Positions 9,841 through 42,137 of a stretch of DNA of 64,000 nucleotides are shown piece after piece. The stretch is from positions 1 to 64,000 of the forward strand of contig JAJKHS010000024.1 of the NCBI GenBank assembly GCA_021154885.1, read 5' to 3'. Positions within the stretch are counted from its first letter, which is position 1; each line of letters opens with the position of its first letter. This DNA is from Thermoanaerobaculum sp. GTDB lineage: Bacteria > Acidobacteriota > Thermoanaerobaculia > Multivoradales > UBA5704. A program made the position numbers and the translations under genes. The notes below the pieces were generated by a model, which worked only from the letters and a program-made list of their open reading frames with translations, made no database searches and was not told the DNA's origin.

Positions 9841-10779
9841 CTACCCTCCGGCCAGGCACCAGTTGAGGACGGCCATGGCGCTCGTCATCTTGTGGTAGGC
9901 CTGCCGGAAGGCGATGCTCTGCGGGCCGTCGAGGACCTCGTCGAGCACCTCGTAGCCGCGCATCGCCGGCAGGTCGTGGAGGAAGACGGTGCTGCCGTCG
10001 GGTTTCGAGACCTCGGCCATGACCGCAGGGGTGACGGTGTAGGGCCGGAACCTGGGGACCCAGTCCTCGTCGGCCTTCTTGACCCCCATGGTGAGCCAGC
10101 GGGTCGTGTACACCGCGTCCACCCCGCGCGGCAGGCGGCTCATGTCGTGGTGCTGCTCGATCTCGGAGCCGTTCGCCGCGGCCGTGGCCCGGACCTCCGC
10201 GATGAAGCCCGCAGGCAGTCCGTACCTCTCGGGCGTGACCAGGGTCAGCCGCATTCCGGGGAGCCGGGCGACGGCCAGGGAGATCGCCGAGGCCGAGTTG
10301 TTCCCCTCCCCCAGGTAGAGCACGTGCAGCCCCGCCAGCCGGCCGAAGTGCTCGCGCAGCGTGGCGAGGTCGGCGAGCGACTGGGTCGGGTGCTCGCTTT
10401 CGCTCATGGCGTTGACCACCGCCATCCGGTCCTGGCAGGCGAGCTCGCGCATCTCCGCCATCGTTTCGTTGGTGCGGATGACGAGGGCGTCCAGATAGTT
10501 GGCCAGGACGCGCGCGGTGTCCGGCACGGACTCGCCGGTCACGATCTGCAGGTCGTTGGGCCCGTAGGTGATGACCTGGGCTCCAAGCTTCAGGGCCGCG
10601 ACGGTGAACGACGTGCGGGTGCGGGTGGAGGTCTTACGGAAGTAGATGCCCACGAGGCGGCCGGCCAAGGGGCGCTCAACCGTCCAGCGCCCCTCGGCGA
10701 TGGCGACGGCGGTTTCGACGAGCGACAGGATCGTTTCCCGATCCAGGTCGGAAATGGAAAGCAGATGCTTGACGAGCAT
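9841..10779 (-). CDS. ornithine carbamoyltransferase-like enzyme with altered amine-substrate motifs
   Basis: A 312-residue aspartate/ornithine carbamoyltransferase-fold protein. The carbamoyl-phosphate site is intact: STRTRTS (51-57) and HPTQ (130-133). The ornithine-binding signatures are not. The usual HCLP loop reads HDLP (268-271), and the TDxWxSMG loop reads TTRWLTMG, losing the Asp and Ser that hold ornithine in classical enzymes. It therefore probably carbamoylates another amine. Beside an SbnB-like gene and an NRPS, 2,3-diaminopropionate (giving 3-ureidoalanine) is the best guess, by analogy with zwittermicin- and viomycin-type pathways. An AAGGAG ribosome site (complement of 10785-10790) supports the start. 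Transcribed divergently from the dioxygenase. A housekeeping argF role is less likely because no other arginine genes are present. Confidence 0.8.
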   Translation of the reverse strand: MLVKHLLSISDLDRETILSLVETAVAIAEGRWTVERPLAGRLVGIYFRKTSTRTRTSFTVAALKLGAQVITYGPNDLQIVTGESVPDTARVLANYLDALVIRTNETMAEMRELACQDRMAVVNAMSESEHPTQSLADLATLREHFGRLAGLHVLYLGEGNNSASAISLAVARLPGMRLTLVTPERYGLPAGFIAEVRATAAANGSEIEQHHDMSRLPRGVDAVYTTRWLTMGVKKADEDWVPRFRPYTVTPAVMAEVSKPDGSTVFLHDLPAMRGYEVLDEVLDGPQSIAFRQAYHKMTSAMAVLNWCLAGG

Positions 10780-10967
10780 GCAGGCTCCTTGCGAAAAATG
10801 TTCAATACGACGCTGGGGTCTGCTATTCTACCCGTCTTCTACAGTGCGCGACTCGACCACTTCGGCGCCGCCTCCGTCTATACTCTGGCGACGGCGTGAG
10901 CAGGAGGCGCTGGACGGCATCCCCTCACCAATGAGGAGGCCGTGTTCCGATCCGAAGGAGATCACCG
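10780..10967. promoter_or_regulatory. divergent intergenic promoter region
   Basis: This 188-bp gap separates the divergently transcribed carbamoyltransferase and dioxygenase genes and must hold promoters for both. Each gene has a clear AAGGAG site (complement of 10785-10790 for the left gene, 10955-10960 for the right). I could not assign -35/-10 boxes with confidence. Confidence 0.45.
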
Positions 10968-12023
10968 ATGAGCGAAGAAGAGACCAGCCGGCCAAGCCTG
11001 CGGAAACCGGGCATCCCCGCCCGCCGGGCGGTCAGTGTGTCACAAGGGGACCTGGTGCAGATGGCGCCGATGAACGAGAGCGGCTTCCCGCTGGTGGCCC
11101 AACCGACGGTCCCCGGCGTCAACCTCGCGGGTTGGGCGGAGGCGAACCGCGACCTGATCAGCGGCCGGCTCGCCCAGCATGGCGGGCTCCTCTTCCGCGG
11201 CTTCGCGATCCCGCGGGTGGAGGAGTTCGAGCATGTCGTCCGGGCCATCTCCGGCGATCTGCTGGAGTACAAGGAGCGCTCGTCGCCGCGCCACGCCGTC
11301 AGCGGCCGGATCTACACCTCCACCGACTACCCGCCCGAGCATCCCATCTTCCTGCACAACGAGAACTCCTATCAGGCGGTCTGGCCGCGGCGTATCTTCT
11401 TCTACTGCTCCAAGGCGATGATGGAGGGGGGCGAGACCCCCATCGCCGACGTGCGCAAGATCTACCAGCGCGTCGACCCCGAGGTGCGGGACCGCTTCAT
11501 CGCCAAGCGCTGGATGGTGGTGCGCAACTACGGCGACGGCTTCGGCCTCCCCTGGCAGGACGTCTATCAGACCGAGGACAAGGCCCAGGTCGAGGCGCAC
11601 TGCCTGAAAAACGGCATCCAGCTCGAGTGGAAGGACGGCAACCGCCTGCGCACCCGTGCCGTGCGCAACGCCGTGGCCAGGCACCCCGACAGCGGCGACC
11701 TGTGCTGGTTCAACCATGCCACCTTCTTCCACATCAGCACGCTGACGCCAGCCATCCGCGAGGCGCTGCTCGACGAGTTCGCCGAGGAGGACCTGCCCAC
11801 CAACACCTACTATGGCGACGGCAGCCCCATCGAGGCCGACGCGCTCGATCACCTGCGCTCCTGTTACCACGCCGAGACCGTCAAATTCCCCTGGCAGGTC
11901 GGCGACCTCCTGATGCTGGACAACATGATGGCCGCGCATGGCCGCGCCCCGTTCAAGGGCCAGCGCCAGGTGCTGGTGGGAATGTCGCACCCGACGACCT
12001 GGACCGACGTGCCGCCGCTCTAG
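10968..12023 (+). CDS. SyrP/TauD-family Fe(II)/2-oxoglutarate dioxygenase (probable beta-hydroxylase)
   Basis: A 351-residue TauD/TfdA-fold enzyme, closest in pattern to the SyrP-like proteins of NRPS clusters (blocks LLEYKERSSPRHAVSG, YTSTDYPPEHPIFLHNENSY, NTYYGDGSPIE). The iron facial triad is visible as H130-x-E132 (HNE) and distal H324 (AHGR); R333 is a candidate 2-oxoglutarate ligand. The HxE rather than HxD form is typical of the clavaminate-synthase-like branch. Relatives such as SyrP hydroxylate the beta carbon of an amino acid held on a carrier protein, so the likely substrate is a residue bound to this NRPS. AAGGAG at 10955-10960 fixes the start. Its stop overlaps that of the convergent SbnB-like gene (CTAG at 12020-12023). 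Confidence 0.85.
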   Translation: MSEEETSRPSLRKPGIPARRAVSVSQGDLVQMAPMNESGFPLVAQPTVPGVNLAGWAEANRDLISGRLAQHGGLLFRGFAIPRVEEFEHVVRAISGDLLEYKERSSPRHAVSGRIYTSTDYPPEHPIFLHNENSYQAVWPRRIFFYCSKAMMEGGETPIADVRKIYQRVDPEVRDRFIAKRWMVVRNYGDGFGLPWQDVYQTEDKAQVEAHCLKNGIQLEWKDGNRLRTRAVRNAVARHPDSGDLCWFNHATFFHISTLTPAIREALLDEFAEEDLPTNTYYGDGSPIEADALDHLRSCYHAETVKFPWQVGDLLMLDNMMAAHGRAPFKGQRQVLVGMSHPTTWTDVPPL

Positions 12024-13051
12024 CCCAGCGGCAGGAAGGAGTCGATGATCGTGCCGCGGCCCGTCTCCAGGGCCCGCTGGCGCGCCAGTTGCCCCACGGC
12101 GAGGTCCAGCACGCCGAGGCCGAACGGGCTGAAGACGGTCACTCCGTCCTCGTCCTTCTTGGCGGGCGAGGTGCCGGCGAGGAGGTCGGCGAGGGTGCAG
12201 CGGATGAAGTTGCGGTTGCCGGTCTGCTGCTCGGCGAGGTGGATCGAGGTCTGGGCGCGGCTGACGTGGTCGGGATCGTCCACCACGTTGTCACTGGCCA
12301 GGATCGCGCCGGCGGTGAGGTCGCGCAGCGAGGTGTGGAGGATCGTGGCGCCGGGCAGGCAGGCCGAGAGGTCGCCGACGTGGGGCTGCACCGCGGTGGT
12401 GGCGAAGGCGATGAGGGGGCAGGTGCGGAGGATCTCGTCAGGATCTTCGGCCACCAGGACCTCGACGCTGTCGTCCCGGCGGACGCCGCGGGCCATCCCG
12501 GCGATGCGCGCGGCCAGCGACTCGGCGCGCTCCCGCTGGAGGTCGAAAAGACGGAAGCGGGTGAGGTCGGGGAGGGTGTGGAGGAGGAAGCGGGCGGTCT
12601 CGAAGTTGATGATGCCGGTGCCGATGAGGCCCGCCGAGCCGGTCGTGCGGCCGCGGCGAAGCTCGCGGGCGGCCAGGGCGGCGCTCGCCGCCGTGCGGCG
12701 GGCGCTGATCAGGGAGCTCTCCAGGATGGCCTCCGGCAGCCCGGTGGTGGCACTGTTGAGGATCAGCACCGCCGAGGCGCGGGCCATCCCCTTCTCCACG
12801 TTGCCCGGAAAAGAGGCGATCCACTTCATGCCGGCCACCCCGAAGCCGTCGCCAAGATAGGCGGGCAGGGCGATGATCCGGTTCCGGTCGTCGTTGGGGA
12901 AGCGCAGGAAGGTCGAGTGCGGCAGCGAGCTCTCGCCGCGCGAGTGGGCCAGATAGGCCCGCGCCACTGCGTCGATCACCTCGAGCTCGCGCCCGGTAAG
13001 GAGGTCGTCCACCTCGCTGCCACGCAGGATCAGGATCTGGTTCTCAGTCAT
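12020..13051 (-). CDS. sbnB: SbnB-like dehydrogenase (ornithine cyclodeaminase family), diaminopropionate biosynthesis
   Basis: A 343-residue member of the ornithine cyclodeaminase/mu-crystallin superfamily. The blocks SLPHSTFLRFP, NRIIALPAYLG, GMKWIASFPGNVEKGM and ISARRTAASAALAA are those of SbnB, the NAD-dependent enzyme that oxidatively splits N-(2-amino-2-carboxyethyl)-L-glutamate into L-2,3-diaminopropionate and 2-oxoglutarate. The dinucleotide site is GLIGTGIIN. I chose ATG 13051 (MTENQILILRG) over the longer frame from 13267 because family homology begins there; the extra 72 residues are low-complexity and would overlap the NRPS start. The usual partner SbnA (cysteine-synthase-like) is not in the window, so the amino acid pathway would need it elsewhere. 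It lies divergent to the NRPS. Confidence 0.8.
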   Translation of the reverse strand: MTENQILILRGSEVDDLLTGRELEVIDAVARAYLAHSRGESSLPHSTFLRFPNDDRNRIIALPAYLGDGFGVAGMKWIASFPGNVEKGMARASAVLILNSATTGLPEAILESSLISARRTAASAALAARELRRGRTTGSAGLIGTGIINFETARFLLHTLPDLTRFRLFDLQRERAESLAARIAGMARGVRRDDSVEVLVAEDPDEILRTCPLIAFATTAVQPHVGDLSACLPGATILHTSLRDLTAGAILASDNVVDDPDHVSRAQTSIHLAEQQTGNRNFIRCTLADLLAGTSPAKKDEDGVTVFSPFGLGVLDLAVGQLARQRALETGRGTIIDSFLPLG

Positions 13052-13230
13052 TGCCCGCCAAGAATGACACAGCCGGCTCGCCGGTGGAATGGTTGCCGCA
13101 GGGTCGGGGCGAAGTGGCCTGATGTCCCGGCCGGCAGCGCCCTTCGCACCTTGTAGGGAGGGGCGGCTCGTGTCGTCTCCTGTCGCTACCCCCAGAGTTT
13201 CTCCCCCGGTCACACCCAGACGTCGATCCG
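13052..13230. promoter_or_regulatory. divergent promoter region of NRPS and sbnB-like gene
   Basis: A 179-bp gap between the divergent sbnB-like gene and the NRPS. I see no strong Shine-Dalgarno before the NRPS ATG at 13231 and no clear operator palindrome. Promoters for both directions are expected here on position alone. Confidence 0.4.
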
Positions 13231-16200
13231 ATGACCGATTCGTTCCCGTCCCACGGCGCCGGTCCACCGTCTCTCGTTGCGGCTCTCCGCGGTCAGGCCG
13301 CCCTTCGCCCCGGACGGCGGGCTTTCACCTTTCTGGCTGACGGAGAGGTGGAGTCCGAGCGGCTGACCTATCGGTCCCTCGACCGGCGGGCCCGGGCGGT
13401 CGCGGCCACGCTGGCGCGGCACGGCGGAGCGGGCGAGCGGGTCCTCCTGCTCTTTCCGCCGGGGCTCGATTTCGTGGCCGCCTTCTTCGGCTGCCTCTAC
13501 GCCGGCGCCGTGGCCGTCCCCGCCTACCCGCCGCGCGCGGAGCGCTCAATCCCTCGCCTGCGGGCCCTCGCCCGCGATGCCGCGCCGCGCTTCGCCCTGG
13601 CGCCGGCCGCCGGTGCCGACCGCCTGCGGCGGGCAGCAGCCGGCCTGCCGGAGCTCGCCGGGGTCGAATGGCTCTCGCTGGGCGAGGGGCGAGAGGAGGA
13701 CTGGCGGGAACCTCTGGCCAGTCCGGAGACGCTCGCCTTCCTCCAGTACACCTCGGGCTCGACCTCGAACCCCAAGGGGGTGATGGTCACCCACGGCAAC
13801 CTGCTCGCCAACGCCCGGGCGATCACCCGCGCGGTCGGGCTCAGCGAGCGCGATATCCTGCTGAGCTGGCTACCGCTCTATCACGACATGGGGCTGATCG
13901 GGATCGTGATCCAGTCGGTCCTGCTGGGGGCGCGCTGCGTGCTGATGCCGCCCACGGCCTTCCTCCAGCGCCCGCTGCGCTGGCTGCGCGCGATGACGCG
14001 CTACGGCGCCACCTTGAGCGGCGGCCCCGACTTCGCCTACGACCTCTGCGTGCGCCGGAGCAATCCCGAGGAGCGGGCCGGGCTCGACCTGCGCCGCTGG
14101 CGAGTCGCCTTCAACGGCGCCGAGCCGGTGAGCCCCGAGACCCTGGATCGCTTCACTCGGGCCTTCGCTCCGGCGGGGTTCCGTGCCGAGGCGCTCTGCC
14201 CCTGCTACGGCTTGGCGGAGGCGACCCTGCTGGTGTCGGTCTCGCCGCCCGGTGCGGCGCCAGCGATGCGGGAGGTGGAGAAGCCTGCGCGCCGGCTCGC
14301 CGGGAGCGGGACGGTCGCGCCCGGGACAGAGGTGGCAATCGTCCATCCCCGCACTCGCCGCCGCCTGGAGGTAGGGCGGGTGGGAGAGATCTGGGTGGCC
14401 GGTCCCCAGGTGGCCGCCGGCTACTGGGGCCGTCCCCGGGAGTCGGCCCGGACCTTCCGGGCGCCGGCGGGGGAGGAGCGCGGGGCCTGGCTGCGCACCG
14501 GTGACCTCGGCTTCCTCGAAGGAAGAGAGCTGTTCGTCACCGGTCGCATCAAGGACCTGATCGTGCTGCGCGGCCGCAACCTCTATCCCCAGGATGTCGA
14601 GCGGACGGCCGTAGCGAGCCATCCGGGCTTCGCGCCGGGCGGTGCCGCCGCCTTTGCCGTGGAGGCGGGCGGCCGGGAGAGGCTGGCCGTCGTCCAGGAA
14701 GTCGGCCGGCGCTTCCGCACCACCGCCGCCGCGGAGGCCATCGCGGCGTTGCGCCGCGCGGTGGCCGAGGAGCACGAGGCCGAGGTCCACGGCGTGGCCC
14801 TGCTCGCCCCGGGCACCCTGCCGCGCACCTCCAGCGGCAAGGTGCGGCGCCAGGCCTGCCGCGAGGGTTTTCTGGCGCGGACCCTGCCCGCGTTGGCTTG
14901 GGACGTGGCGGGTGAAGCCGAACCTTCGGAGTCCTTTGCGGAGCACGGGGTACGCCACGCCGTCGCCCGGTCGCTCGGCCATGATCCACGGGGAGCCGAT
15001 GCCCGCCGGCCGCTCGCCGCCCTGGGGCTCGACTCGCTCGCCGCGGTCGAGCTCCAGCACGCCTTGGAGACCGGTTTCGGGATCGCCCTTTCCCTGCCCG
15101 CCGTGCTCGCCTCGAGCGTGGCAGAAATTGAAGGGCTCGCGAGGACGCTCCGGGCAGGGCGGGTCGAGCCCCCGACCACCGTCCAGACCCGCCCCTACGC
15201 TAAGCCGGCCGAGGTCCCGCTCTCCCACGGCCAGCGGGCGCTCTGGTTCCTGCACCGGCTGGACCCCGAGGGGACCGCCTATCACCTCGCCTTCGCGGCG
15301 CGAGTGCGGTCGAACGTGGACGCGGACCGGCTCAGGGCCGCCCTGGCCGCCCTGGTCGAGCGCCATCCCGTGCTGCGCACGGTCTATGAGGAGCGCGGCG
15401 GCGAGCCCGTCGCCCGGGTACTGGCGGCCGCGCCCGAGGCGTTCGCGGTGATCGACGCCCACGAGCTGGGAGGCGAGGAGCTGCGCGAGCGGGTGGAGGT
15501 CGAAGCGGCGCGTCCTTTCGACCTCGCGGCGGGGCCGGTCCTGCGGGTGCGCCTGCTGCTCGGGCCCGCGGGGCGGCGGGCGCTGCTGGTCGCCGCGCAC
15601 CACATCGCCGTCGACCTGTGGTCGCTGGTGGTGCTGGTCGACGAGCTGGCGCGGCTGCTGGCCGCCCCTGATATTGCAAGGGCGGCGGCGGAGCTGCCCG
15701 CCGCCGGTTCCTGGGCCGCGCACGTGGCCGCTGAGCGCGAACGGCTCGCCGGCCCCGAGGGGGAACGGCTGTGGGCGTTCTGGCACGGCCGGCTGGGGGA
15801 GCGGGAGCTGCCGGTGCTCGACCTGCCGGCCGACCGGCCCCGCCCGGCGGTCGCGCGCTTCCGGGGCGCCGCCCTCCCGCTGGTCATCGGGCCGGAGGTG
15901 ACGGCGGGCGTCAAGGCCCTGGCCGCGGCGGCCGAGGCGACCCTGTTCACCGTCCTGCTCGCCGCCTTCCAGCTCCTGCTCGGCCGGCTCGCCGGCCAGG
16001 ACGAGGTGCTGGTGGGCTCGCCCGCCGCTTGCCGCAGCCGGCCCGAGCTGGCCGATCTGGTGGCCAACCTGGTCAACCCGCTGGTCTTGCGCGGCGGCCC
16101 GGCCGGCGACCCGACCGTGCGGCAGCTCCTCGCCCGGGCCTGGGACGAGCTGCTGGGAGCGCTCGCCCACCAGGACTTCCCGTTCCCGTTGCTGGTCGAG

Positions 16201-37200: not shown

Positions 37201-37863
37201 TTCTTCTGGTGCCATGCCCTGGACGGGAGCACCCTCTGCTACGCCGGCCTCGCCCGCCATCTCCCCGGCCGCCCCCTCTATGGCCTGGAGGAGACGGGGA
37301 GCGGCGGCGCGAGCCTTGAGGATCTGGCCGTGCGCTACGCGGCGGCGATCACCTCCGCGTACTCGTCCGGCCCCTGTCTCCTGGGGGGCTGGTCGTTCGG
37401 CGGCCTGGTCGCCTGGGAAACGGCGCGCCGGCTGGAGGAGATGGGGCATGAGGTGGGGCTCCTCGTGCTGCTCGACAGCCGGCCGCCGGACCCCGCCGCC
37501 CCCGCCGAGATTCCGGGCCTCGGCGACGAGGTCCCCGATCCTCATCTCCGCGCCGTGGTCCACGCCCGTCTCGCCGCCCTGCGCTCCTATCGGCCAGGGA
37601 CCCTCGCCTGCCCGGTCGCTCTCTTCCTCGCCGGGGATCGTCCCCAGGAGGAGACCGCCGCTCTCGCCGCCCTCTGGCGTCCCCTGGCTCCCGGCGGCCT
37701 CGACGTCGAGATCCTTCCTGGGGACCACTTCAGCCTGCTGCGGGAGCCCGCGGTGGCAGCCCTGGCGGATAGGATTGAGCGACGGTTGGCGAGGCTGGCG
37801 AGGCTGGACCACCCGGGAGACAATTTCATGCAAGGAGCGTCGAATGGCCGCGAGTCGCCGTGA
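13231..37863 (+). CDS. single-chain lipopeptide NRPS: FAAL-ACP plus seven modules and thioesterase
   Basis: An 8210-residue megasynthase. Domain map (residues, approximate): FAAL 12-560; ACP (S602); C1 660-1095 (HHIAVDL from 790); A1 1135-1600; PCP1 (S1648); C2 1710-2145; A2 2166-2668; PCP2 (S2711); E 2769-3154 (HHLAVDGVSW from 2898); C3 3166-3604 (DCL-like); A3 3619-4127; PCP3 (S4173); C4 4236-4674; PCP4 (S4736) with no A domain; C5 4791-5229; A5 5244-5749; PCP5 (S5799); C6 5864-6329 lacking the HH motif; A6 6342-6839; PCP6 (S6887); C7 6949-7389; A7 7404-7884; PCP7 (S7931); TE 7980-8200 (GWSFGG, S8055). Specificity codes read by eye: A1 DLFNCALVYK, A2 DVESVAATPK, A3 DVQFAAHIIK (proline-like), A5 DFWNIGMVHK (threonine), A6 DLFMVGAVYK, A7 DSALIAEVWK. 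It makes an acylated peptide with a D-residue at position 2. Confidence 0.95.
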   Translation: MTDSFPSHGAGPPSLVAALRGQAALRPGRRAFTFLADGEVESERLTYRSLDRRARAVAATLARHGGAGERVLLLFPPGLDFVAAFFGCLYAGAVAVPAYPPRAERSIPRLRALARDAAPRFALAPAAGADRLRRAAAGLPELAGVEWLSLGEGREEDWREPLASPETLAFLQYTSGSTSNPKGVMVTHGNLLANARAITRAVGLSERDILLSWLPLYHDMGLIGIVIQSVLLGARCVLMPPTAFLQRPLRWLRAMTRYGATLSGGPDFAYDLCVRRSNPEERAGLDLRRWRVAFNGAEPVSPETLDRFTRAFAPAGFRAEALCPCYGLAEATLLVSVSPPGAAPAMREVEKPARRLAGSGTVAPGTEVAIVHPRTRRRLEVGRVGEIWVAGPQVAAGYWGRPRESARTFRAPAGEERGAWLRTGDLGFLEGRELFVTGRIKDLIVLRGRNLYPQDVERTAVASHPGFAPGGAAAFAVEAGGRERLAVVQEVGRRFRTTAAAEAIAALRRAVAEEHEAEVHGVALLAPGTLPRTSSGKVRRQACREGFLARTLPALAWDVAGEAEPSESFAEHGVRHAVARSLGHDPRGADARRPLAALGLDSLAAVELQHALETGFGIALSLPAVLASSVAEIEGLARTLRAGRVEPPTTVQTRPYAKPAEVPLSHGQRALWFLHRLDPEGTAYHLAFAARVRSNVDADRLRAALAALVERHPVLRTVYEERGGEPVARVLAAAPEAFAVIDAHELGGEELRERVEVEAARPFDLAAGPVLRVRLLLGPAGRRALLVAAHHIAVDLWSLVVLVDELARLLAAPDIARAAAELPAAGSWAAHVAAERERLAGPEGERLWAFWHGRLGERELPVLDLPADRPRPAVARFRGAALPLVIGPEVTAGVKALAAAAEATLFTVLLAAFQLLLGRLAGQDEVLVGSPAACRSRPELADLVANLVNPLVLRGGPAGDPTVRQLLARAWDELLGALAHQDFPFPLLVERLQPRRDSALPPVFQALLALERPHRLGAAVAPFVLGSAGEALQPLHLGPLVLEPLRLDLPGAQLDLGLYVVEQGGGLAGSLRYDADLFDAATVARWAGCFATLLAGMAAAPEARAAELSLLSPAERRQLIADVADVADVAEPASAASLWERFAAQAARTPEAPALLWEVGEVTYRDLAARAGQVAARLADRGIGPEARVGVLLPRTPELVAAILGILRSGAAYVPLDPAYPRERIEWMVADSGAAAVLTSNDVEKPAAAIPAPVGAGPEGLVAVIYTSGSTGRPKGVGVVQRGVAALLAWAERACSEPEIAGVLAATSVCFDLSLFELFVPLTRGGAVVLAENALELPRLPARERVTLLNTVPSAAAELVRAGALPVSVRTVCLAGEPLPEPLARALAAAGRRVLNLYGPTETTVYSTWAEVGRAAGAPPIGRPLPGERVLLLDRRMQPVPPGVPGEIWIGGAGLARGYLGRPDAAAERFLPDPWGPPGARLYRTGDLARLLPDGELAFLGRLDHQVKIRGFRVEPGEVEAALAGHSEVAEVAVGTGPEPGGGRRLVAWVAPARGAAGDLPARLRRHLEERLPAFLVPAAWVVLPVLPRTANGKLDRAALPAPEEAPGSGTAGRPRTPVEEVLAGMWAELLGRPAGPDDDFFALGGHSLVATRLAARVREVLSVEMPVSLLFRAPTLAGLAAELARLRAGEEGPVSPRPAPLVTVPRSGTIPLSFAQQRLWFLDRLEPGTPRYNVPAAVHLRGPLDAAALERAVREVVRRHEALRTRFPETAAGPIQEIDAEPDLPLPWIDLAGLPPAREDAEARRLAAEEARRPFDLARGPVLRAWLLRRGTAAHTLLLVCHHIAVDAWSLSLLLGEVGRLLAGEALPPPRLQIADFSLWQRGWMRGETLTARLASARRRLAGAPALALATDRPRPTVQTSRGGRRPLALAAPLAAAVGEIGRRLGATPFMVLLAAFEVLLGRHAGQEDFAVGAPVAGRDRVETEGVVGLFVNTLVLRADLAGELPFAALVKRVREDALAAYADRDLPFDRLVDAVAPVRDLSRAPLFQTLLSLVDVPRPALDLPELTVQVEEIEAAVAKFDLTLELTPRETPEGGWAGSLEYSADLFDPATAERLAGHFLALLAGAVADPDLPWPRLPLLGAGERHQLLQEWRQGAGTVGEGFVLQAIADQVARDPEAPALIAVDVDEEVSRGELARRAGRLARRLAGLGVGTEEVVGIRIERSAELAVALLAVLQAGGALLPLDPAHPPERLAGLLADAGARRLLVRAADPPPPAGWNGETVAVDDGEDEAEEAVEIPFAIHPIHPIHPIAPEQAAYVMYTSGSTGRPKGVVMPHRGLAVLCRTVAERYGLADGDRMLGFTSPAFDVALEEMLASWVAGAAVAPAPPAAVATLDGFLAFLAAHRVTAVDLPASFWHAWAAALAQAPPPPSLRLVVAGSERLAADKVAAWRQGTRVQLLSAYGSTEVTTPVVGEPWAGEEPVPAGRPLAGAEVVLLDPRGEPVPLGAAGEVAVGGPWLARGYLGRPDLTAERFVPHPWNGPGARLYRTGDLGRFRPDGVLEVLGRIDHQIKVRGVRIEPGEVEAVLETHPEVARAAVAARPGTAGDRLAAWVVPRGGVVPDPADLRTFLADRLPEAMVPTAWVSLADLPLTPAGKLDRGALPEPALDERAAPAAPRNRVEAVLAEVWSRVLGLGAVGIHDDFFALGGDSILTLQIVAGARERGLEVSPRQIFERRTVAGLARVVGEKDGRDSRDGRDEEGEGRGEGWFALTWIQRWFFALEQPAPHHFNQALLLAPEEPLDPGLMAGAVAALVERHEALRLRFERGPEAWRQRVAPEERDLFAWIDLEGLPAPLRTAALTAAAAQAQTGFDLQSGPLFRAVLFRMGGSERLLLAAHHLAVDGVSWRLLLGDLDRACRRLPLPPRTTSFQRWARLVGEAESTIQQVARDPVPLPFGLAGEPGPEGEAETVSIELPPETTGDLLRGIPAMYGARPDEALLAALARAAGGRLRVEVEGHGRDADLFPGINPGIDLSRTVGWFTTLSPVLIERPAAEGPGASLRAVRAQVPAGLPRPEVSFNYLGRFDGSGPFALAPEPAGPQRSPAARRTHRLEVNAVAIGDRLRLDCTGNRGDRAALERLAAAVAGELEALLAPCRTLRADPGVEDLYPLTPAQQGILFHDRESPGSGAYVEQLTWTFTGGLDRAALERAWSLVSRRHAVLRTAFVEGEESLQVVRRDAGPKWEVEDWRHLAPGEREERLAERLAADRRRGFDPARAPLQRLALFRLAADRWQLLWSHHHLLLDGWSMALVLEEVLTAYEAFARGEEPELPSRRPFRDFVEWLLRRGADREFWQRLLAGFAAPTPLGIDRPASRPAAGEEAWGERHLHAAPAAGDLLALGRRRGWTPATLVHGAWALLLGFHGGCEDVVFGSVVSGRSALPGAEGIVGLLANTLPVRIGLAAAEPLGPWLDHLQALLLEIRQREATPLPAVRNWSEVARDRPLFESLVAFENFPLGEPLRRWRGGSQIAGVRTVDRTHYPLTLLAAPDGDRLAFTLLFARGRFAESAVDRLAGRLAALLAGMAAGEDRPLSALPLLAPEEVAQLAAWAAGPPAAGGNTPVHERVAAQAARSPEAIAVISAGEGAALTYRELEERASCLAHRLRALGVGPEVPVALCAGRSFDAVAGLLAILKAGGVCVPLDAAYPRERLALMLADSGAELLITRSALADRFNFFDRPMVLLDQTDRTDRTDRSDTADATTNEALAYVIYTSGSTGRPKGVAVSHRLLANVIAWQIACGIARGPRRTLQFSALSFDVSLQEILSTLGSGGTLVLLREEWRADGPRLWRLIAEERIERLFLPFAALELLAGSAPAREPLAPELAEVAVAGEQLHVTPAIAGLFARLPGCSLVNHYGPTETHIITSFPLAGPPASWPALPPIGRAIPGARVTVLDAWLRPLPAGVVGEVWLGGVAVCRGYLGRPDLTAERFLPDPAATPDEPGSRLYRSGDLGRWREDGEIEFLGRRDGQVKVRGYRVELGEIEAALAFHPSVLRAAVVARRDAAGMRLLAAIVPRPEGRAGDDLATDLRAFLLARLPAYMVPTGFAILGDLPLTPSGKVDRQALARVEIESIAAPSASKPPATAIERDLAALWEAVLAVPRVSLEDGFFELGGHSLLAGRLLARVRAVFGVDIPLARLLDDPTLGGMAAAVTAALVTRTEAGTAGRPGIPRRDGAGPAPLSSGQRRMWLAQQMDPGSPAANLPAALRLTGPLDRRALAAALSEVARRHAVLRSGIEAPDGEPILIVAAPSPLAPLALPLVDLAGLAPAQAEAEGSRLAGEEARRPFDLARPPLLRTVLTRLGEDAHLLLLTLHHAAADGWSLAVLVREVGALYAACAAGRPSPLPEPPIQYADYAAWQQARLAAGELAADLDWWRQRLAGLPPLALPTDREGRAAVTAGAAGAVRRSLVLAADRTAALQELARSEGATPFMVLAAAFAAFLGRLAGQDDVAFATPVAGRAQVETEELIGFFVNTLILRIDLAGAAVPLTFRLLLARLRTAVAEAHAHQELPFERLVEELAPDRRAGRHPLVQTVFALQNAPREPLALPGLTVTPVAVATGTALFDLAVEVEEWDGSLTAHLEVDAGLWEAAMAERLLQQLTTLLAAAVADPDRPLGELPFVPLVKRFAKRLETRREAPVPAPAPAGEVAERLAAIFAEVLGRPEVGPYDGFWDLGGHSLQAARVVARVRRDLGAEIPLRSLFEAPTPAGLARLVSGGTVPAPPPVAAAGPGSAPLSFGQQRLWFLQQLAPASPAYDIPLAVRLDGALDVRALAAALSEVVRRHEVLRTAIRTRHGEAVPEVAPPAPLPLPRIDLSALPAPRREEEAARLAAEEGRRPFDLTRAPLLRCLLLRLGPDAHRLVLNLHHIAGDGWSGAVLVREAGALYAAFTSGLPSPLPELALQYADFARWQREQLSGATLDRLLAFWRQRLAGLPPLELPTDRPRPPVESFRGVRASRRLAACALERLAGEGGATLFMVMTAALAALLGRLSGQEDFGIATPVAGRTRAELEGLIGFFVNTLVLRADLAGDPSFAGLLARTRETVLAAQDHQDLPFERLVEALGERRDPARQPLAQALLVLQNAPRAPLVLPGLTLTPVEIDNGTAKLDLSLDLERDGEEIAAGLEVNRDLFDATTAARMLEQLATLLAAAAADPGLPLPALPLLSPAARHQVLAEWGDGGDPGAAPVPFHRLFAAAAARRPEALAVTGEDGESLTYGELDRRANRLARHLRSLGVRPEARVGICLPRSPELIVAILAVVKAGGAYVPLDPDYPRERLAFLLEDSRALLVITRSGLAGALAAGVRTVRLDADDIGARAIARRSPRPLGDGAGVDHPLYVIYTSGSTGRPKGVVVTHRNAARLFTATAPWFGFGEGDVWTLFHSFAFDFSVWEIWGALLHGGRLVVVPWWVSRSPDAFLHLLRREGVTVLNQTPSAFRPLIAAARREERWDLALRCVIFGGEALDPRHLAPWFERCGDRHPRLVNMYGITETTVHVTYRPLSRADAQGARSPIGRALPDLAIRLLDRCSLQLVPPGVPGEICVGGEGVARSYLGRPDLTAERFVPDPWGKGARLYRSGDLARWLPDGDLEVLGRIDQQVKVRGFRVEPGEIEAALEAHPGVRECAVVARSDEEDEEDGERRLVAYVVGEVPAAELRAFLQERLPSPMVPAVFVTLAALPLTRHGKLDRAALPAPGSTAAAAAVAPFAPPETPVERAIAASWGEILGVSGIGLDDDFFALGGDSIRSIQARVRAAERGVHFTVQELFQHPTVRGLARAACAAVDPATEPAGDLLSPADRARLPVGIEDAFPLARNLAGLVFHSEYSPDYLIYVTSLHLAAPFDAGRLQQALDQVVARHPVLRSSYALEGFSEPLQIVHRNVRVPVEVEDLRHLPAAAQEEALERWLAAEQRRKFDWRRPPLLRLKVHRRSAETLQLTLAEAYLDGWSVGLFLTELFHRYLALLPPDLVPAGAAALPPPDDRPLAAAYRDYVALERAALASAAARRFWERRLDGGGGGGGRLPATWLARADARRRPAHFTRELVGHLEVPFPERVSDGLHAAARAASAPLKDLLLAVHLKLLSLLNGTPDVLSGVLANGRPEGADGDRVIGGFLNAMPFRLDLAPGSWADLARQTFAAERELLPYRRFPLAEIAEISELGQREPRAGRPLFDTLFNFTHFHVYERLARIPGVAVLGSWGSEQTYFPLTVQLNVHEITHRISLALDHRRADLDAPEAEEIAARYVRLLEAVAADPEAPHDALCLLGPAERQQVFVEWNDATVVGDEERAVHELFAAQAARTPGAPALLWGEEVVTYGELAARAGRVARRLLGLGLPAEARVGVLLERSPDLVAAILGAVAAGAAYVPLDPAYPRERLAAMLDDSGARALVTRRGLGPWAATAATAATAGRTRIDLEDLAGLEPAGAAGLPPVDPARLFAVIYTSGSTGRPKGVAVEHRSVAAFLAGAARVYSPEERAGVLAAASVCFDLSVFELFFPLVHGGVAILADNVLDLPRLPARNAVRLIMVVPSAAAELLREKGFPLSVRTLVLGGEAVPLGLVRGLRAENPGWRLFDAYGPTEATVYSILGLIAADLAGAPPIGRPAAGDRALLLDPDLQPVLPGVPGEIWLGGRGLARGYLGRPDLTADRFRPDPTGEPGTRLYRTGDLGRLLPDGRIEFLGRRDHQVKVRGFRIELGDVEAALARHPGIASAVVVDRRDPDAPGDARLVAYAVPRRGLPPAESWAVELRGFLRQALPAHMVPSDFVVLDSLPLTSTGKLDYRALPAPDRERAGADRPWTAPRTPVEELLCGLWAQVLGVERVGAGDDFFALGGHSLLATQLISRLRETFSRELPLRALFDAPRLSDLARVVERALAAGDGDAAPPLAPHPRPLPEVPLSFAQQRLWFLDRLEPESPLYDVPVAVRLRGRLAPPALGAALTEVVRRHEALRTVFRAVDGRPRQEVVAAAPAPLPVLDLAGLPVPCRTPEAARLAREAARRPFDLGRGPLLRLALLRLGPEEHLLLAVFHHVVADGWSMGIFLRETAALYRAALAREPSPLPPLPLQYADFALWQRGWLAGETLERQLAFWRGRLAGVPPLALPTDRPRPAVPAYRGGRVPVVLDPALGAAVGALARREGATFFMIVLAAFSAVLGRWAGQESLAVGTPIAGRTRLELEPLIGFFVNTLVLPVDLAGHPTGRDLLGRCREAALGAYAHQDLPFEKLVEALRPERERARSPLFQVLLAVQNTPLPDFDLPGLTLAPVEVEAGTARFDVTLTLAEGPAEIAGWLEHDAHLFDRATATRLTGHLATLLQALAADPGRRLEDLPLLAAGERHQLLVEWAEPAGVQGMGTPEILELIAAQARRTPDAVAVAQGEREITYGDLVAGAERLARNLRARGVGPEVPVAIHLRKSPEAILAILGVLRAGGAYLPLDPAYPEERLAWVTTDARVALTLDEKDDFAAGGGGHGIAGLPAVPPAAPAYVLYTSGSTGRPKGVVVTRAGLLASTLARLEGYAPPVSAFLILPSLAFDSSVAGLFWTLCQGGALVLPEEGEAADPARLARLVERRRVSHWLSIPSLYALLLDAAGCEIGRLRSLAAVIVAGESCPAGLPGRHAAAFPGVPLLNEYGPTEGTVWATAGELAPGEPVTIGRPIPGARVLLLDRALRPAPAGVPGELFLGGEGLARGYLGRPDLTAERFVPDPLSLLPGARLYRTGDLARWLPDGRLDLLGRVDDQIKVRGFRIEPGEIEAVLERCPGVRQAAVVARDLPSGDRRLAGCVTGAADLDPEALRGLLAGRLPAHLVPPEMVVLPALPLSPNGKVDRPALKRLLAGRPASPRGATPPADALERRLAAIWEELLGLPEVGREDGFFDLGGHSLLAVQLVARVETELGRRLPLAALFRSATLASLAAEIRSAPAARLASPLVSLRAGGQGRPFFWCHALDGSTLCYAGLARHLPGRPLYGLEETGSGGASLEDLAVRYAAAITSAYSSGPCLLGGWSFGGLVAWETARRLEEMGHEVGLLVLLDSRPPDPAAPAEIPGLGDEVPDPHLRAVVHARLAALRSYRPGTLACPVALFLAGDRPQEETAALAALWRPLAPGGLDVEILPGDHFSLLREPAVAALADRIERRLARLARLDHPGDNFMQGASNGRESP
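16590..16622 (+). repeat. 9-bp tandem microrepeat in C1-A1 linker
   Basis: Repeats of GCCGACGTC/GCCGATGTC encode ADVADVADVA between C1 and A1 of the NRPS. Comparable in-frame 9-bp repeats occur at other linkers and loops of the same gene. Confidence 0.6.
20138..20167 (+). repeat. 9-bp tandem microrepeat in A2 domain
   Basis: Three to four copies of ATCCATCCG encode IHPIHPIHPI just before the A3 core motif (YTSGSTGRPKG) of the second adenylation domain. Confidence 0.7.
24453..24490 (+). repeat. 9-bp tandem microrepeat in A3 domain
   Basis: Copies of GATCGGACT encode DQTDRTDRTDRSD just before the A3 core motif of the third adenylation domain. This is the same loop as the repeats at 20138 and 32583. 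Confidence 0.7.
27279..27294. other. 16-bp perfect palindrome at the missing A-domain junction
   Basis: GCGCTTCGCGAAGCGC is a perfect palindrome in the short linker joining C4 to PCP4, where an adenylation domain of about 500 residues would normally be. It may be chance in GC-rich coding DNA or a scar of the event that removed A4. Confidence 0.5.
37832..37837 (+). promoter_or_regulatory. ribosome binding site for the multicopper oxidase, inside the NRPS 3' end
   Basis: AAGGAG lies 6 nt before ATG 37844, within the last codons of the NRPS in another frame. It fixes the oxidase start and implies translational coupling to the NRPS. Confidence 0.7.
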
Positions 37864-39106
37864 TTTCTTTCGTCTTGGCCTCGGGGTGGGGGCGGGTTGG
37901 CTGGCGGCCGCCTGCGAGACCGCGGCCGGCCCCAAGGCGCTGACCCGGGCCATGGCGGACCACCTTCCCGGCGGCCCCCCGCTGCCTGTCGAGACCCCCG
38001 ACCTGCCCAGGCTCCCCTGGACCTGGGATAATGGGGTCAAAGTCTTCCAGCTCACCCCCGAGGTCGTGAAGAGCCGTTTCGTCCCCTGGCAAGAGGTCAA
38101 CACCTGGGGATACAACGGCTCCACTCCTGGCCCCACGATCGAGGCGGTGGAGGGCGATCGGGTGCGCTTCGTCGTCGAGAACCACCTCCCCGAGGCCACC
38201 ACTCTCCACTGGCATGGGCTGGAGGTGCCGCACGAGATGGACGGCGCCGAGGGGATCAGCCAGGATCTGATCCCGCCCGGTGGGAAGTTCGTCTACGACT
38301 TCACCCTCCACCAGCACGGCACGTTCTTCTATCATTCGCATCGCCCCATGCAGCAGATGATGGGCATGGTGGGGCTGTTCGTGATCCATCCCCGGCGGGC
38401 CTACGAGCCCCGGGTCGACCGCGACTTCGCCTGGGTCCTCCAGGGTTGGGCGACGTTGCCCGGCAATCCCACGCCCAACAGCATGGCCATGGAGTTCAAC
38501 TGGCTGACGATGAACGGCAAGGCGGCCCCCGCCACCACGCCGGCGCTGTGCAAGTTGGGCGAGAGGGTGCGGCTGCGCTTCGTCAACCTCGGCATGGATC
38601 ACCACCCCATGCATCTCCACGGTCACACCTGGGTGGTCACCGGCACGGAGGGGGGGCGTGTTCCCGCCGCCGCCTGGACGCCGGGCAACACCGAGATCGT
38701 CGGGGTGGCCCAGGCGCGCACCCTGGAGCTGGTGGCCAACAATCCGGGCGACTGGATGATCCACTGCCACCTGCCCCATCACATGATGAACGCCATGGCC
38801 ACCATGGCCCCCCCGCTCCTGCCTGCGAGCGGTCGCGCCGAGACGCCGGTCTCGCACGGCGTGGGACCGGCGCCGGAGGGGCATGCCCATCATCACTCCG
38901 GGGTAGGCGACGCCCGTTCCATTCCCGGCTATCCCCAGGACATGTTCATGGCGATGGACGATCAGGTCGCCAGGCCGGAGACCCACGGCCTGCGGCCGGG
39001 CTGGACCGGCGGCATGATGGGCATGATGACCCTGCTGCGCGTCCTGCGCTCCGACCAGTACGACGAGATCCTGGCCCTGAAGGCGAGCCAGGCGGGGAGG
39101 GCGTAA
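37844..39106 (+). CDS. Tat-exported two-domain multicopper oxidase
   Basis: A 420-residue multicopper oxidase overlapping the NRPS end by 20 bp. A twin-arginine signal (RRDFFRLG, residues 5-12) precedes two cupredoxin-like halves. All four copper-ligand clusters are present: HWH (122-124), HSH (164-166), HPMHLHGH (254-261) and HCHLPHHM (307-314). At about 420 residues it is shorter than three-domain laccases or CueO and fits the two-domain class. Methionine-rich stretches (MQQMMGM, HHMMNAM, MMGMM) suggest copper handling. It should act in the periplasm or cell envelope, oxidising Cu(I), another metal or a phenolic/peptide substrate. The coupling AAGGAG site and overlap tie its expression to the NRPS, which is unusual. 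The stop overlaps the next start (TAATG). Confidence 0.88.
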   Translation: MAASRRDFFRLGLGVGAGWLAAACETAAGPKALTRAMADHLPGGPPLPVETPDLPRLPWTWDNGVKVFQLTPEVVKSRFVPWQEVNTWGYNGSTPGPTIEAVEGDRVRFVVENHLPEATTLHWHGLEVPHEMDGAEGISQDLIPPGGKFVYDFTLHQHGTFFYHSHRPMQQMMGMVGLFVIHPRRAYEPRVDRDFAWVLQGWATLPGNPTPNSMAMEFNWLTMNGKAAPATTPALCKLGERVRLRFVNLGMDHHPMHLHGHTWVVTGTEGGRVPAAAWTPGNTEIVGVAQARTLELVANNPGDWMIHCHLPHHMMNAMATMAPPLLPASGRAETPVSHGVGPAPEGHAHHHSGVGDARSIPGYPQDMFMAMDDQVARPETHGLRPGWTGGMMGMMTLLRVLRSDQYDEILALKASQAGRA

Positions 39107-40191
39107 TGAAGGCCCTGTCCTGCCTCGGGCTCGCGATGCTCCTCTCCTGCGGGGTGGCCGCGGCCGCGGCGGACGATTCCGCGCCGCCGGCCGTCCACCT
39201 GGCGGACCTCGAAGGCCGGGCCCTGCAGCACAACCCGGCGATGGCCTCCGCCGAGGCCGCGCTCCGCACCGTCGACGGGCAACTGCAAAAGGCCGGCTCC
39301 GATCCCGTGCTCGCCGGCAGGCTGGCGCGGACGCGGAGCCAACTGCTGGTCGAGCGGCAGCGCATGCTGGTGAAATTCCGCACCCTCTTCTTCCATACCC
39401 TGGCCAACCAGCAGCGGGTGGAATCGCGGCAGCGCCTCGCCAGGCTGGCGCGAGAGGCGATGGCAGTGACCGGCCAACTGTTCAACGTCGGGGCCGCGGA
39501 CGACCCGGACCGGCTGGCCAGCGAAAACGAGGCGCAGGTGCTCGATGCCGCTCTCGCCGACGCCCGCTTCGAGTTGGAGCAGATGCGCGCGCTGCTCAAA
39601 GAGACCGTCGGCGAGCCCGGGATGGAGCTGGGCTCCCTGCAAGGCGACCTCATCGCCGAGCTGCCCAGGATCGACCGCGAGGAGTGGCGCCAGCGCCTCC
39701 TGCGCGAGAGCCCGTCCCTGCAGGAGGTGAAGGCCGAGATCGCCCGGGACGAAGCGGCGCTGGCGCGGGCTCGCCAGGCTCGAAAGGGGACCGCGGCGGC
39801 CGAAGCGGCGCTGGCCCAGGCCCGCCTGCGCGCCGAGCAGATCCGCCTCACCCTGGAAATCAGCTTCGCCGAGACCTATGCGGCCTACCAGTCCGGGGTC
39901 CGGCAGATCGAGACCTATCGCGGCGGCGTCCTCGAACGTGCGGAGCACGCCTGGCAGGAGACCCTCCAACGCTACCAGCAGATGACGGCCCCTTATCCAC
40001 AGGTCCTGATCGCCCGGCGTAACCTGTTCCAGATGGAGGATGCGGCCCTCGACGCCGTGGTGAAGGCGTGGTCGGCGGCGATCGACATCCAGGCCCTGCT
40101 GCCCTACGAGCTGCCCCAGAACCTGGCGCCCCCCATTGCCGCGCCCTCGGCGTCGGCTCCGGGCGGCGGCGGCAATTCAGGCGTCCCCTGA
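39106..40191 (+). CDS. TolC-family outer-membrane-efflux-like protein, short and lacking obvious barrel strands
   Basis: A 361-residue protein with a signal peptide (about 1-22) followed by long charged helices with heptad character (NPAMASAEAALRTVDGQLQKA..., LARLAREAMAVTGQLFNVGAADDPD), typical of the periplasmic helical barrel of TolC-like efflux proteins. Family members are usually 400-500 residues and contain beta strands of the membrane barrel between helix pairs. Here the segment between the first and second helical repeats is reduced to a short RQARKGTAAAEAAL turn. It may therefore be a periplasmic coiled-coil relative rather than a complete channel. Its ATG overlaps the oxidase stop, so the two are translationally coupled and probably work together in copper handling or product export. 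The 3' end overlaps the convergent aminotransferase by 15 bp. Confidence 0.7.
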   Translation: MKALSCLGLAMLLSCGVAAAAADDSAPPAVHLADLEGRALQHNPAMASAEAALRTVDGQLQKAGSDPVLAGRLARTRSQLLVERQRMLVKFRTLFFHTLANQQRVESRQRLARLAREAMAVTGQLFNVGAADDPDRLASENEAQVLDAALADARFELEQMRALLKETVGEPGMELGSLQGDLIAELPRIDREEWRQRLLRESPSLQEVKAEIARDEAALARARQARKGTAAAEAALAQARLRAEQIRLTLEISFAETYAAYQSGVRQIETYRGGVLERAEHAWQETLQRYQQMTAPYPQVLIARRNLFQMEDAALDAVVKAWSAAIDIQALLPYELPQNLAPPIAAPSASAPGGGGNSGVP

Positions 40192-41343
40192 GACCGGCGC
40201 TGCGCCCATCGCGGCCCGGATCGCCCGGCCGAGGCGCCGGATGCCCTCCTCGATTTGCTCCGGGGGCAGGCTCGTGAAGCTCAAGCGCAGGCAGCGGTCG
40301 CCGCACGGGTCGCCGGCGCAGAAGATCACGCCCGGGCTGAAGGCGACGCTCTCCGTCTCGACGGCGGCCTGAAGCAGTCTGGCGGCGTCGAGGCCGGGCG
40401 GCAGCTCGGCCCAGACGTACATGCCGCTCATGGGGTGGTTCCACAGGACCTCGGGCGGGAAGTGGTCCCGCAGGGCGGCGAGCATCGTGTCGCGGCGGCG
40501 CCGGTACTCGTCGCGCAGCATCGCCAGGTGGGCGGGGAGGAGCCCCGCCTCGAGATAGGCCGCGATCACGCGGTGACCGAGAGAGGGCGTGTCGAGGTCG
40601 ACGCCATGCTTCAACGGCGAGAGGCGGGCGGCGAGGGGCGGGGGCACGACCACCCAGCCTGCCCGCAGCGCGGGAGCCAGGATCTTCGAGAACGATCCGA
40701 GGTATAGGACCCACTCGTCCTCGAGCGCGCGCAGCGGTGGCGCCGGCGTCTCGCCGTAATAGAGGAAGCCGTAGGCGTCGTCCTCGAGGATGGGCATCCG
40801 GTACCGGCGCGCCATCCCGGCGAGGCGGCGCCGTTTCTCGCGGCTCAAACTGACGCCCAGCGGGTTGTGCCCGTCGGTGATCGCATAGAGGAAGGCTGGG
40901 CGGGCACCGCCGGCGAGCAGGGTCTCGGCCGCGTCCACGTCCATGCCGGTGGCGAGGTCGGCCGCGACCGTCAGGATTTCCGGCTGCTGGAACCGGGTCG
41001 CCAGCCGGATGCCGTCGTAAATGGCCCGCTCGAACAGGACCTGCCCGCCCGGAGGGAGAAGCAGGCGGCTCAGGAGATCCATCCCCTGCTGGGCGCCGGA
41101 GGTCAGGAAGATCTGCTCCTCCGTGCAGCGGACGCCCCGCAAGGCCATCAGTTGAACGATCTGGGTCTTGAGGGGCCCGTACGGCAGGCCGTACTGGAGG
41201 GACGAGGCGCTCTCCCGGAGCACGCGGGCCGCCTGCTCGGCGAGCGCCTCGCGCGGGAACAGCTCGGCCGCCGGCAGGCCGATGGCAAACGAGAGGATCC
41301 CGGGCCGCGAGGCGAGGTCCATGATTTCGCGCAGGCTCGCCAT
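40177..41343 (-). CDS. PLP-dependent class I/II aminotransferase (2-aminoadipate/MocR-type fold)
   Basis: A 388-residue fold-type I aminotransferase without the DNA-binding domain of MocR regulators. Visible motifs are YGLPYG near 51, TSGAQQG (81-87), HNPLG (159-163) for the PLP ring, LEDDAYGFLYY with the pyridine-N Asp, and the Schiff-base Lys K220 in GSFSKILAPALRAGW. A C-terminal CLRLSF supplies the carboxylate-binding Arg. Close families include LysN-like 2-aminoadipate and aromatic aminotransferases. At the edge of the NRPS cluster it might make or degrade a nonproteinogenic building block, but it could equally be an unrelated amino acid enzyme. It is transcribed towards the TolC-like gene, on the strand opposite the NRPS operon. 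Confidence 0.8.
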   Translation of the reverse strand: MASLREIMDLASRPGILSFAIGLPAAELFPREALAEQAARVLRESASSLQYGLPYGPLKTQIVQLMALRGVRCTEEQIFLTSGAQQGMDLLSRLLLPPGGQVLFERAIYDGIRLATRFQQPEILTVAADLATGMDVDAAETLLAGGARPAFLYAITDGHNPLGVSLSREKRRRLAGMARRYRMPILEDDAYGFLYYGETPAPPLRALEDEWVLYLGSFSKILAPALRAGWVVVPPPLAARLSPLKHGVDLDTPSLGHRVIAAYLEAGLLPAHLAMLRDEYRRRRDTMLAALRDHFPPEVLWNHPMSGMYVWAELPPGLDAARLLQAAVETESVAFSPGVIFCAGDPCGDRCLRLSFTSLPPEQIEEGIRRLGRAIRAAMGAAPVSGDA

Positions 41344-41564: not shown

Positions 41565-42137
41565 ATGACCAACGGGACGATCACGAAGCTGCTCCAGACC
41601 TGGAGCGAAGGGGACCAGGAGGCGGCGGAGCGGGTCCTCCCTCTGGTCTACGACGAGCTGCGGCACATCGCCTCCCGACAGCTCCGGCAGGAGCGGGAGG
41701 GCCACACGCTCCAGGCCACGGCGGTGGTGCACGAGGCCTATCTGCGCCTGCAGGGGCAGGGGGGGTTCGAGTGGCCGAGCCGGGCCCACTTCTTCGCCTT
41801 CGCGGCGCACCTCATTCGCCGCATCCTGGTGGACCATGCCCGCCATCGCAACCGTGCCAAGCGGGGTGGCGGGCTGGAGAGGGTGACGCTCGCCGAGGCC
41901 GCGGACCTGGCGCTGGAGCGGTGTCCGGACCTGGTGGCTCTCGACGAAGCGCTCACCTGTCTGGAATCCCTCGACCCCCGCAAGGCGGCGGTGGTGGAGC
42001 TGCGGTTCTTCGCCGGCCTGACGCTGGACGAGACCGCCCAGCATCTGGGGGTATCGCCCGAGACGGTGGGGAGGGAGTGGCGCCGGGCCCGGGCCTGGCT
42101 GTACGACCAACTCCAGCCGGTCGAGGGGCGGGCCTGA
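41565..42137 (+). CDS. ECF-family RNA polymerase sigma factor
   Basis: A 190-residue sigma-70 family factor of the type often paired with Ser/Thr kinases in Acidobacteria and Planctomycetes. Region 2 covers about residues 20-90 (LVYDELRHIASRQLRQE, HLIRRILVDHARHRNRAKR). Region 4 covers about 125-185, with LRFFAGLTLDETAQHLGVSPETVGREWRRARAWL as a clear helix-turn-helix. There is no separate anti-sigma factor gene. Instead the stop overlaps the start of a kinase gene (TGATG at 42135-42139), suggesting the kinase controls the sigma factor or shares its signal. Target promoters are unknown. Confidence 0.9.
   Translation: MTNGTITKLLQTWSEGDQEAAERVLPLVYDELRHIASRQLRQEREGHTLQATAVVHEAYLRLQGQGGFEWPSRAHFFAFAAHLIRRILVDHARHRNRAKRGGGLERVTLAEAADLALERCPDLVALDEALTCLESLDPRKAAVVELRFFAGLTLDETAQHLGVSPETVGREWRRARAWLYDQLQPVEGRA

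Follow-up and report, generated by a model that had tools for sequence, protein, structure and literature searches.

Organization of the locus

The window analyzed here, a 64,000-nucleotide stretch of Thermoanaerobaculum sp., covers positions 1-64000 of a contig of 66.9 kb; the genome, 8.2 Mb in 161 contigs, has at least 112 condensation-domain matches, and no 16S gene was found in it. Its central element is a gene for a seven-module nonribosomal peptide synthetase (NRPS) with the order FAAL-ACP-C1-A1-T-C2-A2-T-E-C3-A3-T-C4-T-C5-A5-T-C6-A6-T-C7-A7-T-TE, where FAAL is a fatty acyl-AMP ligase, ACP and T are carrier domains, C, A and E are condensation, adenylation and epimerization domains, and TE is a thioesterase; the sixth condensation domain, C6, is devoid of the catalytic histidines and is the main subject of this work.

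The N-terminal 550 residues of the NRPS find an FAAL-type structure as their top PDB match (525 bits), followed by FadD23, FadD32 and FadD28, and are thus nearer to solved FAALs than to acyl-CoA ligases. Motif reading indicates that the P-loop and the A10 lysine are intact in all six A domains; the eight carrier serines are present, the active-site motifs of E and TE are intact, and all C domains retain HH, with C6 as the sole exception. An earlier, sequence-only reading of this DNA had described an 8210-residue NRPS starting with an FAAL and a carrier and ending with a thioesterase, flanked by genes for a carbamoyltransferase, an SbnB-like enzyme, a SyrP-like hydroxylase, a multicopper oxidase (MCO), a TolC-like protein and an aminotransferase; the open frame and the PDB and Pfam matches bear this out, with SbnB above the TIGR03944 cut-off (Table 1). 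The motifs of C1 and C2 read HHIAVDLWS (15598) and HHIAVDAWS (18757), both lacking the usual DG.

Table 1. Features of the NRPS cluster and coordinates in the window
Feature	Position	Strand	Evidence or remark
Carbamoyltransferase, L-2,3-diaminopropionate (or diaminobutyrate) transcarbamylase type	9841..10779	-	Pfam OTCace_N/OTCace
Stand-alone Fe(II)/2-oxoglutarate TauD-type hydroxylase	10968..12023	+	Pfam TauD
SbnB-type N-(2-amino-2-carboxyethyl)-L-glutamate dehydrogenase (last step to diaminopropionate)	12020..13051	-	TIGR03944
NRPS, 8210 aa	13231-37863	+	One uninterrupted open frame, 24.6 kb
FAAL	13231..14910	+	Best PDB matches are FAAL-type structures
ACP	14923..15150	+	Pfam PP-binding; motif LGLDSL
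Module 1, C1-A1-T1	15208..18300	+	Code DLFNCALVYK, Ala-like
Module 2, C2-A2-T2-E	18358..22680	+	Code DVEDVGATPK, putatively basic-like; D-residue
Module 3, C3-A3-T3	22723..25875	+	Code DVQFAAHIIK, Pro-like
Module 4, C4-T4, no A domain	25933..27555	+	Pfam; same gap in G170 and G305
Module 5, C5-A5-T5	27598..30735	+	Code DFWNIGMVHK, Thr
C6, dehydrating-type C_modAA domain without HH	30748..32220	+	McyA 329 bits, AmbE 150 bits
C6 shortened active-site strand, AEAYLDGWS	31210..31236	+	Alignment; McyA counterpart SFHHSILDGWS
Module 6, A6-T6	32248..34005	+	Code DLFMVGAVYK, Ala-derived
Module 7, C7-A7-T7	34063..37125	+	Code DSALIAEVWK, His
Thioesterase	37153..37845	+	Pfam thioesterase at NRPS C-terminus; motif GWSFGG
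MCO	37829..39106 (start approximate)	+	Pfam
TolC-like outer membrane protein (OEP), paired with the oxidase	39103..40191	+	Pfam
LysN/MocR-type class I/II aminotransferase	40177..41343	-	Pfam; closest to general 2-aminoadipate/MocR-type enzymes

The A-domain codes were read through alignment to PheA. That of A3 is Pro-like; together with the E domain of module 2 and the code of A5, it keeps the sequence-only reading's D-residue 2, Pro-like residue 3 and Thr at module 5 standing as predictions. A literature search of the codes gave matches for those of His and Thr only, and the A7 code is recorded as a His code that also accepts β-OH-His (PMC12283262). Three features go beyond the earlier reading: the His-less C6, the His code at A7, and a module 4 devoid of an A domain, Pfam finding PP-binding alone between C4 and C5. 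Because the same gap exists in two related synthetases (genomes G170 and G305, described below), module 4 is a conserved design and not a lesion; the loader of T4 may act in trans.

A condensation domain without catalytic histidines

C6 is a member of C_modAA, the dehydrating type of condensation domain. Among solved structures, the C domain of microcystin synthetase McyA and the dehydrating domain of AmbE match it best (329 and 150 bits); other C domains reach at most about 126 bits. The C_modAA hallmark, a [K/R]SVLLAAH segment before motif C5 with a strict DG (PMC11342130), is present in C6 as KDLLLAVH at 6125 and LDG, and the domain follows a module for a β-hydroxy residue (the Thr-coded A5), the placement typical of this type. 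What C6 lacks is HHxxxDG with its catalytic second His: the active-site strand is two residues shorter than that of McyA and has no His, the exact position of the gap depending on the alignment, and the YH(N/D) pair is lost to a further gap of two residues. McyA, whose domain likewise lies between a hydroxy residue and a module of Ala type, keeps HH and YHD, whereas C6 has neither. C_modAA members without HHxxxDG were accepted in the survey of this type (PMC11342130); in AmbE, mutation of the second His led to loss of activity (PMC10880069).

Ten domains have the two gaps in combination: that of the window and nine relatives from several families, found in genomes G170, G305, G345, G218, G160, G060 and G061, on a plasmid of Bradyrhizobium japonicum USDA 123 and on plasmid pAMDE1 of Alteromonas mediterranea DE1. 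In a tree of 38 C_modAA domains, these ten form a single clade with support 100/99, and the residues E5995 and D6279 of the window are conserved throughout it. An assembly error or a lesion as the origin of the missing histidines was rejected, since the identical deletion recurs in the nine other domains. A partial C6-type copy in G333 is also without HH. Within the clade, every readable upstream A code is Thr or Ser, and close pairs of the C6 type have omega values of 0.23-0.31; the type is therefore under purifying selection.

The pAMDE1 domain connects this clade with the bleomycin family, since the plasmid carries a published cluster of that family (PMC3777966); it is the family's representative in the tree, in which the Blm, Tlm and Zbm sequences are not included. 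Among the 50 C_modAA domains surveyed in PMC11342130, the three of BlmVI type are the only ones named as lacking both histidines, as C6 does, and they were assigned conjugate addition in place of peptide bonding. In pAMDE1, the His-less domain sits in a protein with the order FAAL/AL-ACP-C-A(Ser)-T-C-A(Asn), which is a BlmVI-type start. The bleomycin-family NRPSs (BlmVI/ZbmVI type; pAMDE1) and the window are alike in several respects: both begin with AL/FAAL-ACP, both place a His-less C_modAA domain bearing these two short deletions behind a module for Ser or Thr, and both have a His module further on as well as SyrP/TauD enzymes. They differ in the position of the domain, which is near the C-terminus after Thr in the window and at the start after Ser in the bleomycin family; in addition, no polyketide synthase, Cy domains or sugar genes were seen in the window, and a transcarbamylase and SbnB are present there as extras.

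Some further plasmid loci deserve mention. On pUSDA123-1 (282282-301713; L171/L167), the B. japonicum synthetase has a start of FAAL-C-A(Ser)-His-less C_modAA-A, and a penicillin-acylase gene adjoins it, an arrangement like that of the bleomycin-family cluster in pAMDE1. Nostoc and Trichormus plasmids (L139, L140) encode a C_modAA domain with WHN replacing the usual xHH, ahead of a His-coded A domain.

Related synthetases in the phylum

A phylum-wide search with C6 as the query led to G170:C109 and G305:C28, each with two adjacent genes of the order A1-T-C-A2-T-E-C-A3-T / C-T-C-A(Thr)-T-C6-A6-T-C-A(His)-T-TE. Their module order is that of the window, A-less C-T module included, with some differences: two genes share the synthetase, its A1 carries a Gln code and an FAAL was not seen, whereas the window has one FAAL-led gene; the A3 and A6 codes are unlike those of the window, and a methyltransferase-like gene follows. 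In G218 the synthetase is shorter and lacks module 4. No diaminopropionate transcarbamylase, SbnB, TauD, MCO or TolC was found near the G170, G305 and G218 clusters, and no complete orthologous cluster was found in the genus or family of the window, where the best FAAL-C-A match is 53%.

Probable supply of diaminopropionate and ureidoalanine

As for the carbamoyltransferase, it scores below the equivalog cut-offs for ornithine carbamoyltransferase (OTC) and has three motifs, HDLP (VFLHDLPAMRG), EHPTQ and the 240's-loop Arg of TTRW (AVYTTRWLTMG), that are common to 16 relatives, most of which adjoin NRPS or 2,3-diaminopropionate (Dap) genes. HDLP, with an Arg in the 240's loop, is the mark of the transcarbamylases of Dap and diaminobutyrate (DPTCase and DBTCase; PMC4581275), and the window enzyme has both. 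The OTC of the genome is a separate enzyme on contig C83, with HCLP and DVWASMG in place of HDLP and TTRW, and this role was therefore rejected for the window enzyme.

SbnB (start ATG picked from the translation) scores 392 bits with TIGR03944, against a curated cut-off of 327. Its partner SbnA is not in the window, so this step must be supplied from another locus; three copies over the cut-off exist elsewhere in the genome (C25, C139 and C100), and the Dap pathway is thus found in the same genome as the DPTCase. The HDLP enzyme occurs in four of 149 genomes examined from the class (a match in G073 was left out for its HCLP), and all four have SbnB, which occurs in eight genomes overall (hypergeometric P=3.5e-6, a guide only because the genomes are related). 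The same type of DPTCase stands beside SbnA/SbnB and NRPS genes at L002, L003/L069 and L006; SbnA, SbnB and an HDLP enzyme near NRPS genes are seen in Kordia and a Ktedonobacterium. Given the HDLP signature and the co-occurrence with SbnB in all four carriers, supply of β-ureidoalanine from Dap by the window cluster is well supported; the carbamoyl/diaminopropionate tailoring proposed by the sequence-only reading is thereby sharpened, with the reservation that SbnA is missing locally. The viomycin/zwittermicin-type supply of Dap and β-ureidoalanine uses SbnB and an HDLP transcarbamylase as well; the window differs in having SbnA outside the cluster and an FAAL lipopeptide context.

Two further loci bear on these enzymes. 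In G024:C275 (L035 1252-5837), consecutive genes, named from sequence alone, encode an aspartokinase-like protein, a class III (Dab-type) aminotransferase-like protein, an HDLP transcarbamylase and a cupin-like protein, and may form a diaminobutyrate-to-ureidobutyrate cassette. On contig C25 of the window's own genome (L036), a further FAAL NRPS has genes for SbnA and for an asparagine-synthetase-like protein as neighbors.

The TauD hydroxylase

Regarding the hydroxylase, it has the TauD fold of the SyrP-like/IBH-type β-hydroxylases, but no interface-type C domain was seen in a target module. Many TauD homologues in the class form part of NRPSs, in the order C-TauD-(C-like)-A and with A codes for Asp, Asn or Gln; the window NRPS, unlike these, has no extra C-like domain. 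At seven such loci (L093, L092, L096, L098, L099, L102 and L105), the TauD region is followed by a C-like domain of divergent sequence and by A domains for Asp, Asn or Gln, and several of them have a C_modAA domain with ENH or FHH further on.

The window enzyme groups (90/95) with those of G055, adjoining SbnA and an FAAL NRPS, and G091, whose gene overlaps a DPTCase gene; to the two TauD enzymes of pAMDE1 it is only 33-34% identical. Because its relatives stand beside Dap/ureido genes, the more likely target is a Dap/ureidoalanine residue and not His. A viomycin-type reading of the TauD enzyme and the aminotransferase was rejected, with no match to VioC and 62 bits for VioD against a cut-off of 391.

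Proposed product and alternatives

The cluster is best read, with a probability of about 0.6 and judged without a MIBiG or antiSMASH comparison, as an uncharacterized one for a lipopeptide with a Thr-(conjugate-linked)-X-His tail. The FAAL would load a fatty acid onto the synthetase, which would add residue 1 (Ala-like pocket), D-residue 2, Pro-like residue 3, the module-4 residue, Thr5, residue 6 and His7. SbnA from the other locus and SbnB would provide Dap, to be converted into β-ureidoalanine by the HDLP carbamoyltransferase, and the TauD enzyme would probably hydroxylate the β-ureidoalanine residue. C6 would dehydrate Thr5 and join residue 6 via the Thr β-carbon, forming a β-amino-linked unit next to His, and TE would release the finished product. 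The conjugate linkage is inferred from the membership of C6 in the BlmVI-type clade and from the second His required by AmbE.

Several points weigh against this proposal. pAMDE1, the bleomycin-family member of the clade in the tree, has no known product, and the function of the members beyond that family is a prediction. Once conjugate addition has taken place, the Thr carboxyl must be freed or converted to an amide, and the cluster genes examined showed no amidotransferase. As for the ureidoalanine, no A-domain code of the window is assignable to it, the codes compared across the DPTCase clusters have none in common, and the DPTCase genes at L001, L004 and G055:C11 have no NRPS nearby.

The main rival is an ordinary dehydrobutyrine lipopeptide, in which C6, though it has no HH, dehydrates Thr5 and also forms the usual peptide bond, as domains of McyA type do with their HH. 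In the window, as in G170 and G305, no other C domain stands at the junction of Thr5 and residue 6, so plain peptide bonding in the absence of the histidines may occur; the retained K..H hallmark and the closeness to McyA, which serves the module after a dehydrated Ser, agree with it. We consider it unlikely, given the loss of activity of the AmbE mutant and the place of C6 in a His-less clade with a bleomycin-family domain.

Less probable again, and compatible with either role of C6, is hydroxylation of His7 by TauD to give a corrugatin-like β-hydroxyhistidine metallophore. The A7 code is recorded as accepting β-OH-His, and metallophores with this residue have been described together with the hydroxylase class IBH_His (PMC12971057). 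However, the relatives of the TauD enzyme have SbnA or DPTCase as neighbors, and its identity to the two bleomycin-family TauDs is low; His7 is present in G170, G305 and G218, yet the stretches read there contain no TauD; an interface-type domain was not seen ahead of A7, and no siderophore receptor was noticed among the identified genes of the window. Finally, a decaying synthetase making no product, in which the A-less module 4 and the His-less C6 are losses, would explain why one protein is short of two catalytic features, but it is highly improbable: both features recur in independent genomes, the omega values indicate constraint, and the frame is intact across 24.6 kb.

Returning to the conjugate-linked lipopeptide, the bleomycin-type joining domain suggests an unusual, possibly metal-binding product. 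A broader and tentative proposal, to which we give somewhat less than even odds, is that a widespread, undescribed NRPS family in the phylum uses BlmVI-type His-less C domains to build a β-amino-linked Thr-X unit beside a C-terminal His, giving a bleomycin-like metal-binding lipopeptide tail; the window member would add a hydroxylated β-ureidoalanine and load its A-less module in trans. How a C domain joins residues without either catalytic His is an open question hitherto tied to the bleomycin family; the ten-domain clade, with members in different phyla, upstream Ser or Thr and varied downstream residues, makes it testable, and the two short deletions provide a sequence rule by which assembly lines of this kind can be sought. 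A genomic rule comes from the cluster as well, linking HDLP transcarbamylases both to the supply of Dap and to a clade of hydroxylases.

Outer genes and surroundings

The oxidase, TolC-like and aminotransferase genes listed by the sequence-only reading are present, and their part in the pathway is less secure. In G091:C124 and G086:C33, apart from this NRPS, a similar oxidase has a TolC-like match as its neighbor, and no such pair was found near G170, G305 and G218; MCO-TolC was thus rejected as tailoring and is probably an unrelated copper-handling unit. The aminotransferase is of a general type, and its link to the cluster is uncertain; neither it nor MCO-TolC is needed for the proposed model.

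Upstream of the cluster, the minus strand encodes a 1945-aa protein (3667-9504) that combines a propeptide domain of kumamolisin type with a BACON domain and PD40 repeats. Directly after the cluster, on the plus strand (41565-47685), there are an ECF sigma factor and, following it, two long kinase-like proteins whose C-terminal halves are rich in repeats.

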